From IMG/VR virus record IMGVR_UViG_3300037493_002429, positions 1-27,142 of that record: a stretch of DNA of 27,142 bases, one strand, 5' to 3'. Source of the DNA: a virus. Of this stretch, positions 4,632 through 25,759 are shown in pieces (position 1 is the stretch's first letter; each line of letters begins with the position of its first letter). A program made the translations under genes and the position numbers. The notes under the pieces were generated by a model. That model saw only the letters and a list, made by a program, of their open reading frames with translations. It made no database searches and was not told the origin of the DNA.

Positions 4632-6020
4632 ATGAACCTGAGCGAACTACGCTCAAAGGTCGCGGAAGTGCGTGACGAGATCGTCACCCTTTCAGCGATT
4701 GAAGAAATAACTGTCGAAGACGACGCAATTCTCACAGAGAGTCTCGCAACTTTTGAGACTCTCAGCGCTGAGCTTGCTGACGTTGAGGCCCGTTCGGCTC
4801 GTATCGAGGCTGCTAAGGCAACCATCGTTGAGCGTGCATCTGGTGTTGACAGTGTCCAAATCATGAAGCCAACCGAGACTGCCCTAGACATGCGTACTGC
4901 TACTCGTATGCAGATCAAGGATGCAGCTCTCAAGGTGCTCGAGCTTGACGGTAGCGACCTTTCTGCCCGTGCGGGTGACAGTGTCGAGTCGTTGATTCGT
5001 GCCCAGAATGCGAACGTCGATGGGACGCTTATCGCCAAGAGAATTCTTGCGACTGAAACTCCTGCCTACCGTTCAGCTTTCGCTAAGGCTCTTACTTCTA
5101 GCCAGCCTGCCTGGACTTCAGAAGAGGCTCGTGCGATCTCTGAGTATCGTGCCGCTTCTGAGGGTACTGACTCTGCTGGTGGTTTTGGTGTGCCGGTCTT
5201 TATTGACTCGTCCATCATTCTCACTTCGGGTGCTGCTGCTGCTCCGGTCTACAACCTTGCTCGCAAGGTATCGGTCACAAACGACGAGTGGAAGGGTGTT
5301 AGCTCCGCTGGAGTTACGTTCTCCTATGACTCTGAGGCTGCTGCAGTTTCTGACGATGCTGCGACACTCGCACAGCCAACCATCACCGTCTACAAGGCTG
5401 CCGGTTTTATTCCGTTCAGCCTCGAGGTCGGGGACGACTACCCAGCGTTCGCCGCTGAGATGCGTCGCCTCCTAGATGGTGGTTTCATGGATCTCGTAGC
5501 GAGTGGAACTGTTGTTGGTTCTGCTCCTATCGGTATCTTCACTGCTCTTGACGCGAACACCAACGTTGAAGTATCGGTCACAACTGACGGTGCTTTTGGT
5601 GCGGTTGACGTTCTCAAGTTGTGGAAAGCACTCCCAGAGCGCTCCAAGGCTAACGCTTCGTGGATCATGTCCACCGGTGTTGAGAACGAGATCCGTAAGT
5701 TTGCTGCGTCTTCGGATGGTGCTTACTACACGGTGAACCTTGCTGAGGGTGGTCTCGGTAACCTGTTTGGCCGTCCGGTCTACACGACTGACTATGCGCC
5801 AGACTTCACTGCGACAACTGGTGCAGCGAACATCTGTGTTGTTGGAGACTTCTCTAACTTCGTAGTTGCCCAGCGTGCCGGTATGACAGTTGAGCTTGTG
5901 CCTCATCTCTTTGATGTCACAAACAACCGTCCTACAGGCCAGCGTGGTTTCTATGCAGTAGCTCGTCACGGATATGACTCTGTGAACGACAACGGTTTCC
6001 GTCTGCTACAGAACACCTAG
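4632..6020 (+). CDS. Major capsid protein (HK97 fold)
   Basis: A 462-residue capsid protein that builds the icosahedral shell. Residues 1-75 are heptad-like and charged (ELRSKVAEVRDEIVTLS and similar), matching the delta or scaffold domain that the upstream protease removes. The mature part begins roughly after residue 100-140 and carries HK97-family blocks such as the E-loop and spine region (FSYDSEAAAVSDDAATL), WIMSTGVENEIRKF and NLFGRPVYTTDYAP near the A-domain. The start follows AGGAGAG. It uses more C-ending codons than its neighbours, as expected for a very highly expressed gene. A strong hairpin follows the stop. Confidence 0.95.
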   Translation: MNLSELRSKVAEVRDEIVTLSAIEEITVEDDAILTESLATFETLSAELADVEARSARIEAAKATIVERASGVDSVQIMKPTETALDMRTATRMQIKDAALKVLELDGSDLSARAGDSVESLIRAQNANVDGTLIAKRILATETPAYRSAFAKALTSSQPAWTSEEARAISEYRAASEGTDSAGGFGVPVFIDSSIILTSGAAAAPVYNLARKVSVTNDEWKGVSSAGVTFSYDSEAAAVSDDAATLAQPTITVYKAAGFIPFSLEVGDDYPAFAAEMRRLLDGGFMDLVASGTVVGSAPIGIFTALDANTNVEVSVTTDGAFGAVDVLKLWKALPERSKANASWIMSTGVENEIRKFAASSDGAYYTVNLAEGGLGNLFGRPVYTTDYAPDFTATTGAANICVVGDFSNFVVAQRAGMTVELVPHLFDVTNNRPTGQRGFYAVARHGYDSVNDNGFRLLQNT

Positions 6021-6043
6021 TAACAAGTAACAATCGTTGAGTA

Positions 6044-6073
6044 GGGAGGCCGGTCCGAAAGGGCCGGTCTCCT
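6044..6073 (+). terminator. Hairpin after the capsid gene, possible attenuating terminator
   Basis: GGAGGCCGGTCC (6045-6056) pairs with GGGCCGGTCTCC (6061-6072) around a GAAA loop, a 12-bp stem with two G-U pairs, plus an outer G-U pair. There is no clean T-run after it, so it may be a partial terminator or an mRNA stabiliser that keeps capsid mRNA more abundant than that of the downstream genes. Confidence 0.6.
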
Positions 6074-6087
6074 CTCTCACCTAAATA

Positions 6088-6105
6088 TGCAATGGAGGCA
6101 TTGTG
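6088..6105 (+). promoter_or_regulatory. Small hairpin presenting the ribosome-binding site of the 6103 gene
   Basis: CAATG (6090-6094) and CATTG (6099-6103) can pair, with GAGG in the loop and two further wobble pairs outside. The loop is the Shine-Dalgarno core and the stem includes the first base of the GTG start, so the fold could tune initiation. It is short and weak. Confidence 0.25.
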
Positions 6106-6330
6106 AACGAAGATCTAGTTTTTGCGGCATCGACTTGTACGACTGCCGATGCACAGGGTGTGCTTGTGCGGTTGACGGCTAATGAGCCGTGGGCCGCTAA
6201 CGATCCTCTAGTGTTGGCTCGCCCTGGACTGTTTGTTGCGGCTCCTACTGTGGTCCGTCGGACGGTTGCAGCCTCAGCTCCGGTGAAGGTGGAGAAGGCT
6301 ACGAAGGCTCCTGGTGAGAAGCGTGCCTAA
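6103..6330 (+). CDS. Hypothetical small protein downstream of capsid gene
   Basis: A 75-residue protein starting with GTG after a clear TGGAGG motif. It is Val/Ala-rich with a Lys/Ala C-terminal tail (PVKVEKATKAPGEKRA). The middle segment WAANDPLVLARPGLFVAAP resembles short phage proteins encoded near head genes that carry a 'D-P-x-V-x-A-x-P-x-L-F' phrase; their function is not established. Position right after the capsid gene suggests a head-associated or decoration role, but no domain can be named. The stop overlaps the start of the following glycosyltransferase. Confidence 0.7.
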   Translation: MNEDLVFAASTCTTADAQGVLVRLTANEPWAANDPLVLARPGLFVAAPTVVRRTVAASAPVKVEKATKAPGEKRA

Positions 6331-7057
6331 GCCTGATCTGGTTTCTATTGGCTATATCCACGGCAACGAGGTCACTCATTCTTGGCATCAGTCAATGTTG
6401 AATCTGATCCAGTGGGATATGGGCCATGATCAGCATGTTCTTGCTGCTGGTTGGTATGCCACGCGTTATGGGACTGGTGGGATTGTCCAGGCTCGTAACG
6501 ATACGGTCATCCAGTTTTTGAAAGGCCCCGGAGAGTGGCTCTTTTGGATTGATACCGATATGGGGTTCGCTCCAGATACGGTCGATCGCCTGTTGGCTAG
6601 TGCCGATAAGAAGGAGCGTCCGGTGGTTGGGGCTCTCTGTTTTGCGATGCGTGAGGTTGCGGTTGATGGGATGGGTGGCTTTATTGTCCAACCGGCTCCG
6701 ACTGTGTTCGATTGGGTTGAGTTGCCTGACGGGCGGCAGGGTTTTCATACTCGCCTCGAGTACGAGAAAGACCAGGTGTTGCAGGTCGCTGGTACGGGTA
6801 GTGCTGCGATCTTGATCCACCGTTCTGTATTTGAGAAGATCCAAGAGGAGCATGGGAACACTTGGTATTCGCCAGTGTTCAACAAGTCCATGAATCTTCA
6901 TGTCTCCGAGGATCTGTCTTTCTGCTCTCGTGTCGGCGCTATGGGCATTCCAGTCCATATTGATACTGGAGTAAAGACCTCTCATTTGAAGCAGCTCTGG
7001 CTAGATGAGCGGGTCTATGACCGGCTCGAGGTTGTCGGGATGGGGGAGAAGATCTAG
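6323..7057 (+). CDS. GT-A-type glycosyltransferase
   Basis: About 244 residues. The segment GEWLFWIDTDMGFAP carries the DxD motif (DTD, about 77-79) that binds the metal and nucleotide-sugar in GT-A enzymes, following VQARNDTVIQFL, a helix seen in phage and bacterial transferases of this group. Downstream are GSAAILIHRSVFEKI and SEDLSFCSRVGAMGIPVHIDT, the usual acceptor-side acidic and C-terminal blocks. GTG 6323 is favoured because a GGTGAG motif lies four bases upstream; GTG 6314 is also in frame. It overlaps the methyltransferase gene at TAGTG. Donor and acceptor are unknown; a virion protein or DNA base are both possible, with capsid the simpler guess from position. Confidence 0.85.
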   Translation: MPKPDLVSIGYIHGNEVTHSWHQSMLNLIQWDMGHDQHVLAAGWYATRYGTGGIVQARNDTVIQFLKGPGEWLFWIDTDMGFAPDTVDRLLASADKKERPVVGALCFAMREVAVDGMGGFIVQPAPTVFDWVELPDGRQGFHTRLEYEKDQVLQVAGTGSAAILIHRSVFEKIQEEHGNTWYSPVFNKSMNLHVSEDLSFCSRVGAMGIPVHIDTGVKTSHLKQLWLDERVYDRLEVVGMGEKI

Positions 7058-7548
7058 TGCATGCTGAGGCGAGTGCATGGGTTGCAAGGTTCGCTACGGA
7101 TGAGGCTCTTGTGGGTCTCGAGTTTGGGAGCCGGGATATTAACGGCAGCATTCAGGGCCATTTTCCTAATACAACGTGGACTGGTGTGGATATTGCTGAG
7201 GGTCCGGGTTGTGACATTGTGGCGGATGCGAGCACCTATCAGCATTTTGAGCCTGTCGATCTAGTGGTCTGCTGCGAAGTTTTTGAGCATACGGCTCTGT
7301 GGCCGGAGATTGTGGCTAATAGTTTTTTGCAGTTGAAGTCTGGTGGGGTGGCGATTTTTACGGCTGCTGGTCGGGGTCGTGGCCCTCATTCGGCTGTTGA
7401 TGGGTGTGCTCTCCGTGAGGGCGAGCATTATGAGAATGTCGATGAGTACCGCTTCGATCAGACGTTGGTGTTGGCTGGGTTTGTTGATATTGAGGTCGAT
7501 TGGATTGCGAACCCTGGGGACGTTAGGGCGTTCGGTCGTCGTCCGTGA
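7057..7548 (+). CDS. Class I SAM-dependent methyltransferase
   Basis: A 163-residue Rossmann-type methyltransferase. Motif I is LEFGSRDINGS (about 21-31), the acidic end of the second strand is VDIAEG (44-49), and motif IV-like VVCCEVFEHT (71-79) follows, as in small-molecule or sugar methyltransferases related to Methyltransf_11/23. No DNA-methylase DPPY/NPPF motif is present. The GTG start shares its G with the preceding TAG stop, and its own stop overlaps the next GTG (GTGA), so the three genes are translated as one block. Flanked by two glycosyltransferases, it most likely methylates a glycan or glycosylated residue; that is inference. Confidence 0.85.
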   Translation: MHAEASAWVARFATDEALVGLEFGSRDINGSIQGHFPNTTWTGVDIAEGPGCDIVADASTYQHFEPVDLVVCCEVFEHTALWPEIVANSFLQLKSGGVAIFTAAGRGRGPHSAVDGCALREGEHYENVDEYRFDQTLVLAGFVDIEVDWIANPGDVRAFGRRP

Positions 7549-8204
7549 ATCTGTTGGTGGCGATCCCGACCAGGTCTAATTGGGTGATGTTGGCTCCCTT
7601 GTTGGAGCAGCTCGCTGGCGTTGAGGTCATCCTCTACGATAACGGGCATGACAGTCCAGAAGGGCAAGCCCTGCTAGCAGCCCAGGAGAACGTCGTCAAT
7701 GCTCGTGGCTGGCCGTTCTACAAGATGTGGAATAATGCTTGGGAGTATTCTGCGGAGCGAGGATACGACAGTGTCGCACTGCTGAATGACGATATCCTGC
7801 TGCATTCTGACAGTCTGAAGATTGCTTTTGAGGCGTTGATGGGTGGCTCACGGATCGGGATTGTCGGCCTTAACTATGAGCGGCGTGTCTCTGAGGGTGC
7901 CGATGCGAGTCTTGGTCTTCGGTTTGCTCGAGGGGCTCGTCGGAATCATGGGATCGGCGGGCAGGCGTTCTTGTTGAAGTCGAGTCTCTGGGGGGTTGTT
8001 CCTCCGATTGATGAAGAGTATGTGATCTGGTTTGGTGACGACGAGCTCTTCTATAGCGTTGAGGCTGCCGGATATTGTCTACGAGTCGCTATTGGGGCTC
8101 CGGTCGATCATGAAGAATCGACGACTCTGAATCAGCATCCCGAGTTGCTTGCTCGTACTGGCGAAGACGCCGAAAGGTTTCGCCGTAAGTTTGCCCAGTC
8201 CTGA
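7545..8204 (+). CDS. Second GT-A-type (family 2-like) glycosyltransferase
   Basis: A 219-residue protein beginning MNLLVAIPTRSN, the usual first strand of a GT-A nucleotide-binding fold. SVALLNDDILLHSD (about 77-89) contains the NDD motif equivalent to DxD. Further on, GIGGQAFLLKSSLWG and YVIWFGDDELFYSVEAAGY give the acceptor-binding and catalytic acidic region (GDDE) typical of family-2-like transferases. The GTG start overlaps the methyltransferase stop. Only distantly similar in visible motifs to the first glycosyltransferase, so the two probably add different sugars or act in sequence. Confidence 0.83.
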   Translation: MNLLVAIPTRSNWVMLAPLLEQLAGVEVILYDNGHDSPEGQALLAAQENVVNARGWPFYKMWNNAWEYSAERGYDSVALLNDDILLHSDSLKIAFEALMGGSRIGIVGLNYERRVSEGADASLGLRFARGARRNHGIGGQAFLLKSSLWGVVPPIDEEYVIWFGDDELFYSVEAAGYCLRVAIGAPVDHEESTTLNQHPELLARTGEDAERFRRKFAQS

Positions 8205-8223: not shown

Positions 8224-8838
8224 ATGACGATCACTAATGGTCTGTGCAGTCTCTCCGATGTGAAGTCGGCGATGAATATCTTTGACTCTACCGACGACCC
8301 GAGAATTAGTCTCGCTGTTGAGGCTGCGTCAAGAATGATCGAAGCAGACTGCAACCGGCGTTTCTATCAAGATTCGACGGTATCTGCTCGGGTGTTTACT
8401 CCGTTGTCAGGTTTTCTCTGCTTAACAGATGACATTTCAACAACGACGGGCCTGATCGTTAAGACCGATACAGGTTTCGATGGGAACTTTACCCAGACTT
8501 GGACTAGCGCTGATTATCAGTTGGAGCCGTTGAATGGCATTGTTGATGGTCAGTCGTGGCCGTTTACGCAGATTCGTGCGGTTGAGAGTCTCACGTTTCC
8601 GTATTCTCGGACTCGAGCAGTTGTCCAAGTAACAGCGAAATGGGGTTGGAGTGCGGTGCCTACTGCTGTTAAGCAAGCTGCGATCATCCAGTCGATCTCT
8701 GTATTCAAGTCAGTTGAGGCTCCGTTTGGTGCTCTCGGGCTGGCTGATACGGGGATCCTCAGGATTCGTAGTGGTTTGCATCCTTCGGCTGCGATGTTGG
8801 TGGCTCCGTATCGTCGTGATGCGGTGCTTGTAGCATGA
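8224..8838 (+). CDS. Head-tail connector protein (HK97 gp6-like)
   Basis: A 204-residue protein whose first part (LCSLSDVKSAMNI, DDPRISLAVEAASRMIEADCNRRF) matches the helical N-terminus of gp6-type connectors that bind under the portal and seal it. The middle is beta-rich with SADYQLEPLNG and a WPFTQIRAVESL segment. The C-terminal helix has AAIIQSISVFKS, also usual for this family. AAAGG lies eight bases before the ATG. It is the first gene after the glycosylation cassette and overlaps the tail terminator gene by four bases. Confidence 0.8.
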   Translation: MTITNGLCSLSDVKSAMNIFDSTDDPRISLAVEAASRMIEADCNRRFYQDSTVSARVFTPLSGFLCLTDDISTTTGLIVKTDTGFDGNFTQTWTSADYQLEPLNGIVDGQSWPFTQIRAVESLTFPYSRTRAVVQVTAKWGWSAVPTAVKQAAIIQSISVFKSVEAPFGALGLADTGILRIRSGLHPSAAMLVAPYRRDAVLVA

Positions 8839-17332: not shown

Positions 17333-18217
17333 ATGGCCGATAACCTCACCACTCAATCCACGACTCTGGCAACTGTCCCCGATGCATCTGTTATCGCTAC
17401 AGATGAGGTCGCTAGCGCTCACTATCAGAAGATAAAACTTGACGTAGGTGGCGACGGTGTTTCTATCCCAGCAACCGGTGACGCAACAAACGGCCTAGAC
17501 GTTGACGTAACTCGAGTCCAAGGCACAGTAACGGTCAGCGGTACCGTCACCGCTACACCCACCGGTACGCAAAACGTCGACGTCACAGCAAACACAGTCG
17601 GGCTTGCTACTGGTGCCGGTCAGACAACCGCTAACAACAGTCTTAGCAGCCTAGATACTAAGACTCCTGCTCTCGGTCAGGCTCTAGCGGCAGCAAGCGT
17701 ACCGGTGATCTTGCCTAGCGCTACGATTACAACGCTGACTCCTCCAGCGGCGATCACAGGTTTCGCTACCGAAACGACGTTGACATCGCTTAACGGTAAA
17801 GTCACCGCAGTGAACACTGGAGCAGTGACAATCTCCGCAGCACTCCCAGCGGGTACCGCTCTTCTGGGGAAGACTGGCATAGATCAGACAACCCCAGGGA
17901 CAACAAACAACACCACAAACAGGGATGTCACTTACGCCAAGTTTGTTTGCGACGCCGGAACTTTGGTAGCCAACACCTTAGAGACGGTGTCCTTGACAGT
18001 CTCAGGGTTCACAGCAGTTGAAATTGAGATCACAAACATCAACGGTGCGTCGACGATCTACTACACCTTTGACAACACGACACCTTCCTCGACGAACTTC
18101 TCTGGCATATTGCCCGCCACTCCCAGCTCGATAGTGCTCCCATGTAACGGGACTCCGACGTTAAAACTTATTTCCGCTGGGACTCCACTTTGGGGCGCAG
18201 TAGTCAGAGGAGTCTGA
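17333..18217 (+). CDS. Virion structural / tail fibre-like protein
   Basis: A 294-residue Thr/Ala/Val-rich beta protein starting at an ATG after GTAGGAG. Near the N-terminus, ATDEVASAHYQKIKLDVGGDG is a phrase common in phage and prophage surface proteins. The centre has repeated beta elements (TVTVSGTVTATPTG, LDTKTPALGQALAA, ETTLTSLNGKVTAV), then a C-terminal domain with AVEIEITNINGASTIYYTFDNT. It is probably part of a fibre or appendage outside the baseplate. Its stop overlaps the next start (TGATG). Confidence 0.7.
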   Translation: MADNLTTQSTTLATVPDASVIATDEVASAHYQKIKLDVGGDGVSIPATGDATNGLDVDVTRVQGTVTVSGTVTATPTGTQNVDVTANTVGLATGAGQTTANNSLSSLDTKTPALGQALAAASVPVILPSATITTLTPPAAITGFATETTLTSLNGKVTAVNTGAVTISAALPAGTALLGKTGIDQTTPGTTNNTTNRDVTYAKFVCDAGTLVANTLETVSLTVSGFTAVEIEITNINGASTIYYTFDNTTPSSTNFSGILPATPSSIVLPCNGTPTLKLISAGTPLWGAVVRGV

Positions 18218-18672
18218 TGACTACCTTAAAAACTGGATCAATCCTTACGACCGGAACAGCAGTCGGTGACACTGCTCCTGGGATGACGTTGACCTTCGGA
18301 GCGACAGCTGTTTATGCTCAAGCGTTTCAGATAACAGACTTTATCAATGCTCCAATTTTTGCTGTCCCTAGAAGATTCTTAGAAGTTTTATACTGTTACG
18401 GCGACTATTTTGGGGCAGCCAATAACTTGCTCAAGGGTGTCTCTATTGCTTCCGACGGAAAACGTAACCCTGGTGCGCTTCGAATGACCGACGGAACGTC
18501 TAACGGGTTACACATTTGGAGTGGTACTGGCGCTCCTTCTGCAACTACCGTCAATGGACCCGTCAATGTTGGTGATCTTTATATCCGTCTTGATACTCCA
18601 TCAACGTCTTCTCAACGAGTTTACCAATGCACGGCTGGCGGCAGCGTAGGGACATGGGCTGGCAGGCTATGA
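18217..18672 (+). CDS. Fibre-family protein 1 with shared C-terminal module
   Basis: A 151-residue protein. The C-terminal 60 residues hold a module that recurs in the next two genes: LHIWSGTGAPSATTVNG, VGDLYIRLDTPS and YQCTAGGSVGTWAG. The N-terminal half is a different beta domain (TTGTAVGDTAPGMTLTF). The ATG overlaps the previous stop, and its TGA overlaps the ATG of the next gene. The module probably forms a trimeric tip or attachment knob. Function is an inference from context and repetition. Confidence 0.65.
   Translation: MTTLKTGSILTTGTAVGDTAPGMTLTFGATAVYAQAFQITDFINAPIFAVPRRFLEVLYCYGDYFGAANNLLKGVSIASDGKRNPGALRMTDGTSNGLHIWSGTGAPSATTVNGPVNVGDLYIRLDTPSTSSQRVYQCTAGGSVGTWAGRL
18569..18584 (+). 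repeat. Repeat of module DNA (copy 1)
   Basis: TTGGTGATCTTTATAT occurs here in the 18217 gene and again at 20691-20706 in the 20315 gene, at the same place in the shared module (V/I-GDLY-I/M). It supports descent by duplication or exchange of the module. Confidence 0.7.
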
Positions 18673-20318
18673 GCATTCGACGGTCAAAACGCTTCAATGC
18701 TAAACCAGATCTAGTATCAACAACTCTTGTCTATCCTTTCACGTTGACAACCGAAACCGAAGTTTTAGATGCGGGACTGCACATTACTGGTGCATCTTCT
18801 GCACCTGCTGGGCAAGGCCTGTTTCAGGTACAAAACTCCGCCGGAACGATTCTTTGGTACGTCGGAGTGGTCGGCGGGCCAGTTACCAACGCTACAGATG
18901 TTCGGTCATATAACACGGCTGGCACAAAATATGTTGCAATGAGTGGAGTGACCGCTCAACAGTATTACGAATATCATGACGGAACTACAAGTTTCAAAAT
19001 GTGGTCTGGAATAGGTGCGCCTTCAACAGATACAGTCGGAACCGCTGCCGCTGGCGACTATTATCTCCGTCGAGCGACCTACGATTTTCCAATAATGGTC
19101 GGAAAATCTGTGACGATCGGTAACGTCACGGGAAACAGATTCCAATCTATTGCGCCACCTCATGACCAGTCGAACAGCAGTTCTGAAGCCGATGTTGAAT
19201 CTATTGTCCCAGCAAAAGCATTATTCAGTAATTTCAAAATGGTTCTCGCTACAGCACCAGGCGCTGGATCTACTAGGACAGAAACTTTAAGATATGCAAA
19301 TGCTGCTTCGTCGCTGACTTTTACTATTGCCAACCCTGCAACATCCGGTAGCGATACTACGAACACTGCTATCACCTACTCGGATAATGCGACAAATAAA
19401 ACTGTTGCAATCGTATCATCTGCGAATATTGCTCCAGCAGGGTCTCTAGCCAAATGGCGACTGTTGCAGACAGCACCACACCAACACTTGTATGCAACTT
19501 CAGAATCGGGCGCATCTACAACCGCTGTCAGATATATGGGTATTCAAGAATCGGGAGTTGAAACAACGGCAGCAGCTGCGGCACAAATCTTTCCAGATAC
19601 AGGAACTCTCATAAGTTTTACTGCCACGTTATCTACCTCTGCTGGTGCAGGTTCTTACGCTTTAGAACTGTTTAAAGGTACCTACGGTTCTGAAACTTCC
19701 ACCGGCATCAGTTTTACTTTGACCGGTACCACGCCAACACTGTTTTCGCCGGTAGAAACTACGGTGAGTGTCGCTCCAGATGACAGCCTATATTGGAGAA
19801 TCACTCCAAGTGCGACGGCTCCATCTGCTGCGACAATACAAGTTTCTATGGAGTATGCGTCCTCGACCGCTGGCAACTATGTTCTCTTCGGTGGAGACGG
19901 TGGAGCGAACGCTGTTAACAGTGCTGTCCGATATAACAACTGGTATGGCAACGCCGCTTGGAACGCTACGGAAGCAAACGTACAAGCTCTCGCCTATGCG
20001 ACGACCCTTGTTGCTCTTTACGCACGGGTTTCTGTTGATACTGGTGCAGCTAGAACCCGTACTGTCGCATTCAGAATTGGTGGAGCAAGCAGCGCAGCAT
20101 CAGTGGTGTTCAACAATACGGGCCTCACCAAAAACTGGACAGGTTCGGTCGCTATCGCTACCGACAACAACATCAACATTATCCACACTCCAGCGGGCAC
20201 TCCTACTGCTGCGAATGTCCGCTACGGGATATGCCTGAACACTCCCATTACTTCCACCGCTTGCTGGTATGTGTGCACGACCGGCGGTACTCCTGGCACT
20301 TGGAGTCAAATCATATGA
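18669..20318 (+). CDS. Large fibre-family protein 2 with two module copies
   Basis: A 549-residue protein translationally coupled to its neighbours at both ends (ATGA). It begins with a basic tail (MSIRRSKRFNAKPD), then a first domain ending in WSGIGAPSTDTVG and GDYYLRR. A long Ser/Thr/Ala-rich beta region follows, with ETTVSVAPDDSLYWRITPS and RYNNWYGNAAWNATEANVQAL. It ends in the module CWYVCTTGGTPGTWSQII. It is the largest protein of the fibre cluster and the best candidate for the main side or tip fibre. No enzyme motif is seen. Confidence 0.7.
   Translation: MSIRRSKRFNAKPDLVSTTLVYPFTLTTETEVLDAGLHITGASSAPAGQGLFQVQNSAGTILWYVGVVGGPVTNATDVRSYNTAGTKYVAMSGVTAQQYYEYHDGTTSFKMWSGIGAPSTDTVGTAAAGDYYLRRATYDFPIMVGKSVTIGNVTGNRFQSIAPPHDQSNSSSEADVESIVPAKALFSNFKMVLATAPGAGSTRTETLRYANAASSLTFTIANPATSGSDTTNTAITYSDNATNKTVAIVSSANIAPAGSLAKWRLLQTAPHQHLYATSESGASTTAVRYMGIQESGVETTAAAAAQIFPDTGTLISFTATLSTSAGAGSYALELFKGTYGSETSTGISFTLTGTTPTLFSPVETTVSVAPDDSLYWRITPSATAPSAATIQVSMEYASSTAGNYVLFGGDGGANAVNSAVRYNNWYGNAAWNATEANVQALAYATTLVALYARVSVDTGAARTRTVAFRIGGASSAASVVFNNTGLTKNWTGSVAIATDNNINIIHTPAGTPTAANVRYGICLNTPITSTACWYVCTTGGTPGTWSQII
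20286..20303 (+). repeat. Repeat of module DNA (copy in the 18669 gene)
   Basis: GGTACTCCTGGCACTTGG is identical to 20762-20779 at the end of the next gene; both encode GTPGTW. The identity at silent positions suggests recent duplication or gene conversion. Confidence 0.75.
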
Positions 20319-20794
20319 GTAAATCTACGATTATTGGGACAAACCAGACTACGCCCGGGGCGGCTACTGCACCATCAAGCTTGCTGACCGATGCAACGAC
20401 CACTACAGGATTAACGATTAAACAAGGTGCCGGAGCTCCTGCAACTCAAGTCCCATTCAGGATCATAGACACCGACGGTTCCACAATTTTAGAAGTCACG
20501 AACGCCGGGCACCTTGCAGCCTACGGGGTGAAACTGGGCGCAACAAACGGAGTCTTTAACTCTGGAGCGAACATTAATGGCGTATTAGATATTCCTTGTC
20601 TTGAACTTCCCGATGGGGTCACCAACAATGGAATTAAGATCTATATGGGTTCGGGTGTGCCGTCTGGTACGACTGTGAACCCTGGCAGGATTGGTGATCT
20701 TTATATGCGTAAAGACACTCCTAGCATTGCGAACCAGCGTATGTATATGTGTACGGTTGCGGGTACTCCTGGCACTTGGGTTGGGATCGCCTAA
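20315..20794 (+). CDS. Fibre-family protein 3 with shared C-terminal module
   Basis: A 159-residue protein. An N-terminal phage-fibre-like beta segment (GLTIKQGAGAPATQVPFRII, GSTILEVTNAGHLAAYG) is followed by the module IKIYMGSGVPSGTTVN, IGDLYMRKDTPS, MYMCTVAGTPGTWVGIA. Start overlaps the previous stop (ATGA) and its stop shares bases with the next start (TAATG). Likely a small partner or alternative tip of the larger fibre encoded upstream. Confidence 0.65.
   Translation: MSKSTIIGTNQTTPGAATAPSSLLTDATTTTGLTIKQGAGAPATQVPFRIIDTDGSTILEVTNAGHLAAYGVKLGATNGVFNSGANINGVLDIPCLELPDGVTNNGIKIYMGSGVPSGTTVNPGRIGDLYMRKDTPSIANQRMYMCTVAGTPGTWVGIA
20762..20779 (+). repeat. Repeat of module DNA (copy in the 20315 gene)
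   Basis: Second copy of GGTACTCCTGGCACTTGG, identical to 20286-20303. Together with the other shared 16-base stretch it marks exchangeable module ends in the fibre genes. Confidence 0.75.
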
Positions 20795-24922: not shown

Positions 24923-25278
24923 TGGCCGAGAGTGCAGCCTCGAGGCAAGGCCGGTTGAACCGTCAGAAAGGCAAACGGAAACAAGCAGCCGTCCGTCGAG
25001 AGCTAGAAATTATCTTCGATAGTCCGTGTATCTGGGAGCAGAACAAGAGAGACGAAGAAACATGGCTCCACCTCCCGTTGGCCTGCGAAGTAAAATCGGG
25101 ACTTGAAGCCAAGCCGATCCACACTCGCTATACGAATGCTCGAGCACAACACTTCGCAGCGATCCCCAACGAACACAGGCCCTTTATCTATGTGGCCTGC
25201 CCCGATCAGCTCGCAGACAGTTATATCGTAATCAAACTTTCAGATCTCGGAAGGATCATCAATAATGGACATACCTAA
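24922..25278 (+). CDS. PD-(D/E)XK nuclease-like protein (possible Holliday junction resolvase)
   Basis: A 118-residue protein. A basic N-terminal part (RQGRLNRQKGKRKQAAVRREL) precedes an acidic candidate E28, WEQNKRDEETWLHLPLACEVKSG with E56-V57-K58, the E-x-K core of PD-(D/E)XK nucleases. After it, ARAQHFAAIPNEHRPFIYVACPD forms the next helix and strand. Several phage resolvase-type proteins are this size. The first acidic residue of the motif is not certain, so the call is moderate. ATG 24922 is preferred over GTG 24910 because it forms a TAATG junction with the previous gene. Confidence 0.55.
   Translation: MAESAASRQGRLNRQKGKRKQAAVRRELEIIFDSPCIWEQNKRDEETWLHLPLACEVKSGLEAKPIHTRYTNARAQHFAAIPNEHRPFIYVACPDQLADSYIVIKLSDLGRIINNGHT
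25242..25258 (+). repeat. 17-bp repeat upstream of the WhiB gene (copy 2)
   Basis: Identical to 22299-22315 although here it lies inside the end of the nuclease-like gene. It includes GGAAGG, seven to fourteen bases before ATG 25265, and probably acts as the ribosome-binding region of that gene; it might also be a shared regulatory element. Confidence 0.55.
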
Positions 25279-25759
25279 ATTTGAATCGACATTCTGTGAG
25301 CGGAACGCCAACATCTGCCGGTGTAGTGCCTGCCTCGAATATAACGCCTACCGCAGGCGAGCTGCTCGAGCCAAAATCAAAGGCATCCCAGTACCAGCAG
25401 CACGAGGCGAACAACCCACCAGAAAATATGTGCCCGCACGCTGGACCGAATATGCCCTATGCAAAGGACTCGACAGCAACTGGTTCTTTGGAGACGACCG
25501 GGGCAACAGTCCCCACGTCACCAGAGCCAAAAAGATCTGCCATAACTGTCTAGCCAAAGATGAGTGTCTCACCCTCGCGTTAGAAACAGGAGAACGACAC
25601 GGTATCTGGGGAGGGATGACCGTCGGCCAACGCAGACGGCTCGGAAACCAGAACACACCGATGGAAGACCGGCTTAAACGGGCACAACAGTTACGAGACC
25701 GGTTCGCAATAACACAAATCTACGGAGGCAAATATGACAAGTCCAGTCTTAGCGAGTAA
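25265..25759 (+). CDS. WhiB-family Fe-S transcription regulator with N-terminal Cys-rich extension
   Basis: A 164-residue protein. Residues 60-125 form the WhiB core: WTEYALCKG (C66), WFFGDDRG, KKICHNCLAKDECL (C92, C95, C101) and GIWGG (113-117). The four Cys bind a 4Fe-4S cluster and the GIWGG loop contacts host sigma factor in known members; the family is limited to Actinobacteria and their phages. Residues 1-40 add a second Cys group (C11, C18, C20, C23) plus an Arg/Lys stretch, outside the usual domain. Phage WhiB proteins can act on host gene expression (TM4 is an example), so this may be a regulator of middle genes or host sporulation/septation. It overlaps the exonuclease gene by 26 bases. 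Confidence 0.92.
   Translation: MDIPKFESTFCERNANICRCSACLEYNAYRRRAARAKIKGIPVPAARGEQPTRKYVPARWTEYALCKGLDSNWFFGDDRGNSPHVTRAKKICHNCLAKDECLTLALETGERHGIWGGMTVGQRRRLGNQNTPMEDRLKRAQQLRDRFAITQIYGGKYDKSSLSE

Follow-up and report, generated by a model that had tools for sequence, protein, structure and literature searches.

Gene content of the insert

The window, meaning the whole stretch of DNA analysed here, is a 27,142-base virus record, and coordinates given without a locus name are positions in it. Three plus-strand open reading frames, GT1, MT and GT2 in that order, are sited between the capsid gene with its follower g75 and the gene for the head-tail connector:

4632-6020, plus strand: major capsid protein, HK97 type (Pfam Phage_capsid, 5.6e-33; phrog_10, 4e-39; 39 relatives in IMG/VR)
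6038-6079, plus strand: strong RNA hairpin behind the capsid gene, with a 13-bp stem (MFE -34.6, z -5.4)
6103-6330, plus strand: g75, small head protein of 75 aa (phrog_9538, 5e-4; synteny)
6323-7057, plus strand: GT1, predicted GT-A glycosyltransferase of 244 aa with a GTG start (phrog_34859, 6e-21; alignment; AF2 model; PDB fold matches)
7057-7548, plus strand: MT, predicted class I SAM-dependent methyltransferase of 163 aa (phrog_32762, 8e-15; Pfam Methyltransf_23, 1e-4)
7545-8204, plus strand: GT2, predicted GT-A-type glycosyltransferase of 219 aa (phrog_22332, 5e-5; hhalign to the GTx family)
8224-8838, plus strand: head-tail connector, gp6-like, the right border of the island (Pfam Phage_connect_1, 3e-5; phrog_442, 1e-15)

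The three genes lie where an initial annotation of this DNA had placed them and are as tightly coupled as it described: the start of GT1 (6323) overlaps the 3' end of the preceding g75, and stop and start codons overlap within TAGTG at the GT1/MT junction and within GTGA at the MT/GT2 junction. Its remark that the insert breaks the usual capsid-to-connector order also holds, the more distant capsid relatives Gordonia Zirinka, Rhodococcus Shagrat and Mycobacterium Sbash running from capsid through a small gene to the adaptor without any insert.

The hairpin behind the capsid gene recurs at equivalent places in about 80 relatives, with and without GT1, its structure kept while its sequence changes. 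It is probably an attenuator or a processing site and may set how strongly the capsid is expressed relative to the genes downstream; control specific to the cassette was considered and rejected, because comparable hairpins occur in relatives that lack GT1 as well. Elsewhere in the window (18190-20794), three successive tail-region open reading frames have similar ends (VGTWAG, PGTWSQ and PGTWVG), which suggests duplicated fibre or tip modules behind them.

A gene for a WhiB transcription factor is located at 25265-25759 (Pfam, 5e-19). One paper describes WhiB as confined to Actinobacteriota (PMC10202952), and together with the mostly actinobacterial relatives that are borne as prophages this gene points to an actinobacterial host.

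Enzyme families of the trio

Although the Pfam matches of the three enzymes are weak and below curated cut-offs, their PHROG matches (6e-21 for GT1 and 5e-5 for GT2, both to glycosyltransferases, and 8e-15 for MT, to a SAM methyltransferase) exceed chance, so that the enzyme calls hold. Two transferases and a SAM enzyme, as initially annotated, are thus borne out by these matches, by the motifs and AF2 model of GT1, and by a profile alignment of GT2 with the GTx family, whose members occupy the position behind GT1 in many relatives. None of the three products contains a predicted transmembrane segment.

The AF2 model of GT1 is confident (pLDDT 85, pTM 0.86) and gives 174 matches in the PDB at E<=0.001, the top ones being GT-A enzymes. 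As modelled, GT1 is itself a GT-A enzyme, with the fold, a DxD metal site, an acidic catalytic pair and a C-terminal His; the alignment shows no variation among 20 homologues at the ARN, DTD, ED and C-terminal H positions. Its structural neighbours include LH3, GalNAc-T2, COLGALT1, Mnn9 and SpsA, of which LH3, GalNAc-T2 and COLGALT1 are protein-directed; as these are generic GT-A matches with TM-scores of only 0.5-0.58, they do not fix the acceptor of GT1.

By its SAM motifs and family match, MT is assigned to the class I SAM methyltransferases. SAM-motif-like residues are conserved in an alignment with 15 homologues, the first motif being atypical, and the Pfam matches are confined to Methyltransf_23/12/11; in the PDB, MT matches UbiG-type and phosphoethanolamine methyltransferases at 2e-7 to 6e-7. 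The TylF/Methyltransf_24 profile, which does match Che8 gp108 and Wildflower gp33, gave no match in the window MT. Its substrate is probably a sugar or glycan.

GT2, which carries the motifs IPTR, DNG, NDD, DDE and H, seemed at first a protein without relatives, an impression that profile searches overturned. Homologues were found in L106 (2e-10), in L092 (1e-9) and as gp109 of KimJongPhill (8e-4), and hhalign aligned the full length of GT2 with the GTx family (97% over 204 columns; 99.9% with an expanded profile). Judged by its glycosyltransferase profile match and DxD-like motif, GT2 is a divergent member of that family and would probably add a further sugar; its single-sequence AF2 model (pLDDT 51) was too poor to use.

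If the enzymes instead glycosylated or methylated phage DNA as protection against nucleases, they would resemble phage transferases for which DNA glycosylation is known, a role also proposed for freshwater actinophages (PMC10202952). The GTx family moreover matches phrog_2675, named DNA methyltransferase; we rejected that name as a functional label, since the match covers the glycosyltransferase part and the name need not apply. Against a DNA target, MT resembles small-molecule methyltransferases. A hydroxymethyl base is made by the thymidylate-synthase kind of enzyme, and PF00303, which detects that type, was found in 1 of the 18 records searched, which may be incomplete, and not in the window. 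We regard DNA modification as the least probable of the explanations considered here.

Inheritance of GT1 with the capsid

Capsid searches of IMG/VR returned 39 relatives, and in all 30 loci whose sequence extends 1000 bp or more beyond the capsid gene, some of them near-duplicates, GT1 lies right behind the capsid gene and g75. A search with GT1 itself found 446 relatives in IMG/VR contigs, 80 of which were kept, so that similarity to GT1 was the route to many of the loci; with that proviso, the order capsid-g75-GT1 is seen in 85/85 GT1 loci in which the capsid gene is present. Fusions of g75 with GT1, apparent in some long open reading frames, were dismissed, the two being in different frames there.

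On a quick, midpoint-rooted capsid tree of 107 rows, the presence of GT1 requires only four changes, consistent with a single gain and with three losses, in the Planobispora, Promicromonospora and Acidimicrobiaceae prophage lineages. Pairwise distances correlate with those of the capsid at r=0.84 for GT1, 0.91 for portal, 0.80 for protease, 0.88 for connector, 0.69 for MT and 0.34 for GTx, values that rest on related sequences and are therefore used only for their relative size. The divergence of GT1 thus follows that of the capsid as closely as the core head genes do, whereas that of GTx does not. GT1 thereby appears to be an ancestral partner co-inherited with this capsid type and is the core gene of the island, probably adding the first sugar. 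In cellular genomes it is rare, the previously known case being the only one among 395 sampled genomes of the class; prophages in culturable hosts carry the locus (L056, L061), the one in Spongiactinospora rosea (L056) with the order capsid-g75-GT1-GTx-MT2-epimerase.

Co-inheritance with the capsid can also come about through hitch-hiking within a compact module, and one could regard the genes as accessory sugar-enzyme cargo without a fixed target that is kept in the head operon in this way. The high variability of the slot behind GT1 would suit such cargo, as would the lack of GT1 in the three prophage lineages of the capsid clade. Its near universality and apparently ancestral status in the clade do not, nor do the retention of catalytic-type residues and the purifying selection on GT1 (dN/dS of 0.09 against L002), and we consider mere cargo very unlikely. 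We did not retain a dN/dS value computed for the capsid gene with L002 as reference, as the ungapped comparison proved unreliable.

A variable slot behind GT1

Rather than the isolated compact trio of the initial annotation, the window presents one state of a variable island. Among loci that include the connector, the slot behind GT1 holds GTx-MT (20 loci), X3 (10), GTx-epimerase-MT2 (8), GTx-epimerase (5), GTx alone (1) or, in the window, MT-GT2 (1); three have no recognised gene, and in two of these GT1 directly precedes the connector. GT1 and GTx/GT2 are joined in one open reading frame, as a real fusion, at 27 loci. Proteins with Methyltransf_13/14 domains (L121, L126), families of C-methyltransferases of activated deoxysugars, also occupy the slot, as do additional transferases and, in L130, a GDP-mannose dehydratase. 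The slot epimerase is a nucleotide-sugar epimerase whose best NCBIfam match, GDP-L-fucose synthase, is far below cut-off. With an epimerase, the dehydratase and the Methyltransf_13/14 proteins in the slot, a sugar pathway that includes sugar methylation is the natural reading, and a methylated sugar is plausible.

Behind the sugar genes of L110 (7857-9587), L112 (9530-11578) and L117 (2642-4372) lie long open reading frames of 576-682 aa, one of which has a CBM96 carbohydrate-binding domain, the others being without a family match.

In the window, MT-GT2 appears to stand in place of X3, a polytopic membrane protein that fills the slot in most of the nearest relatives. A homologous MT-GT2 pair is also adjacent in Streptomyces phage KimJongPhill and Pontimonas phage phiPsal1, so that the pair may move as a unit. 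The second transferase can also sit in another gap between head genes: in L092 a GT2 homologue (309-1010) is found upstream of the prohead protease, and GT1 is then followed directly by the connector.

X3, seen between GT1 and the connector in L003 (3671-4498), L072 (6707-7561), L073 (3145-4014), L079 (6522-7346) and L037 (2312-3133), has many invariant residues, yet no match in Pfam, PHROG or NCBIfam, and a simple virion model leaves it unexplained. Its presence behind GT1 in close relatives would suit work at the membrane, and the cassette might accordingly alter a glycan on the surface of the host cell at a late stage of infection, for receptor masking, superinfection exclusion or progeny release; partner exchange could then follow host glycan types, and a cell-wall role has been proposed for freshwater actinophage glycosyltransferases (PMC10202952). 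However, GT1, MT and GT2 are themselves without membrane segments, the genes are in the late head module and not among early or lysogeny genes, and GT1 tracks the capsid gene. Moreover, GT1 occurs in 0/394 other sampled genomes of the class and is thus not a common prophage serotype-conversion gene. The trio differs from gtrABC-type serotype conversion, with its membrane-bound glycosyltransferase and flippase, in having no transmembrane protein; the relatives that bear X3 do have a membrane protein. On balance we judge a host-surface role unlikely, albeit deserving of consideration.

A candidate virion-glycosylation locus

With GT1 inherited along with the capsid type and the other genes swapped, the most likely product of the cassette is a sugar coat on the virion, variable and probably methylated. 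We consider it probable that the trio is the variable part of a virion-glycosylation locus in a clade of actinobacterial tailed phages, specifying lineage-specific and often methylated glycans. GT1, expressed with the late head genes, would put the first sugar, taken from a host nucleotide sugar, on a virion protein, most likely the neighbouring capsid protein; GT2 would add a further sugar and MT would methylate the glycan. The genes behind GT1 would be exchanged between lineages, so that different lineages would display different glycans.

This proposal builds on features read from the sequence, namely enzyme families, gene coupling, conservation, co-inheritance and partner exchange. A virion protein as target is suggested by the late head position, the link between GT1 and the capsid clade, and precedents in other phages; synteny within the head module by itself speaks for co-expression and not for a target. 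The initial annotation had proposed stepwise building of a methylated glycan, of which the glycan pathway stands as the likely role and the methylated sugar as plausible; we infer the acceptor, the sugar, the order of steps, the methylation site and the benefit, which may be shielding of the particle or altered adsorption or decay.

As candidate acceptor tails, C-termini of capsid and tail proteins were compared and set aside: capsid C-termini show no clear difference between lineages with and without GT1, TS-type tail-protein ends are also present where GT1 is absent, and the comparison of these ends yielded no acceptor site or signal.

More tentatively, with somewhat less than even confidence, GT1 could be a protein glycosyltransferase dedicated to the capsid, having evolved alongside a single HK97 capsid clade, the exchangeable genes giving each lineage its own particle glycan. 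Such a system would be the counterpart, among phages, of the surface-polysaccharide islands of bacteria, and these viruses are not confronted with adaptive immunity. If the locus does glycosylate virions, glycosylated particles would be the norm across a large and mostly uncultured set of actinobacterial viruses, raising the question of what selects variable particle glycans outside animal hosts.

Comparison with known systems

In the Streptomyces phages Zuko and KimJongPhill (gp107-gp109), a GT-MT-GT run likewise has its MT (34-40% identity) beside a GT2 homologue, but it is not part of the head module, being located alongside tRNA genes close to the right end of the genome. Pontimonas phage phiPsal1 (MG835450), whose host is an aquatic actinobacterium, has GT-MT-GT exactly between the capsid gene and an HK97 gp6-type neck gene, with homology to the window in MT (2e-54) and GT2 (1e-9); it differs in that its first transferase belongs to GT-B group 1, its MT is on the opposite strand, its capsid is distant and GT1 is absent.

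Glycosylated virions are reported for the mycobacteriophages Che8, Corndog and Myrna, such modification having been shown, in the literature surveyed, in a few mycobacteriophages, and one report describes Che8 gp110 and Corndog gp38 as essential for capsid glycosylation (PMC12363180). The window trio has the same hallmark as these systems, multiple glycosyltransferases and a methyltransferase in one gene run. Che8 gp108-gp110 comprise glycosyltransferases with a methyltransferase domain (gp108 combining a GT2-type domain with TylF), although they are encoded at the far right genome end and belong to different enzyme families; searches of GT1 against Che8 gp110 and its cluster O homologue gave no hmmsearch hit and an hhalign probability of at most 20%. 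Cluster O phages (Corndog and relatives, of which Wildflower gp33-36 were examined) resemble the window in having a compact methyltransferase and glycosyltransferase cassette inside the head module, an O-methyltransferase with three glycosyltransferases, enzymes to which modification of the capsid and the tail tube is ascribed (PMC11600133; PMC12363180). That cassette is instead situated between portal and protease, its O-methyltransferase is of the TylF type, and neither its enzymes nor those tested from Che8 have detectable homology to GT1, MT or GT2.

The closest precedent for the slot itself is the insertion of 8-10 genes between the capsid and head-tail connector genes of the cluster J mycobacteriophages Omega, LittleE and Thibault, described in 2013 by authors who left the targets open (PMC3706429). 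As in the window, several glycosyltransferases and SAM methyltransferases are involved: Thibault gp11, which comes first after the capsid gene, is remotely homologous to GT1 (hmmsearch 2.3e-8; hhalign 96% over 161 columns), as gp13 is to MT. Thibault gp11 (L149 4423-5076) is annotated as a hypothetical protein. The cluster J insert is far larger, with kinase and peptidase-like genes and a capsid only remotely related to that of the window, and no GTx/GT2 homologue or g75 match was detected in it.

A cassette of this kind near the capsid gene, which the initial annotation had thought notable, is therefore familiar from cluster O, cluster J and phiPsal1, and the insertion of transferase and methyltransferase genes in the gap from capsid to connector was already known (cluster J, PMC3706429). 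What is new, within the literature and databases searched, is a core GT1 present throughout the clade and inherited together with the capsid, along with an inventory of the modules that can be exchanged and the prophages in culturable hosts. The prophages of Spongiactinospora, which is in culture, and the tractable phage Thibault with its remote GT1 relative put the proposed virion glycosylation within reach of experiment.
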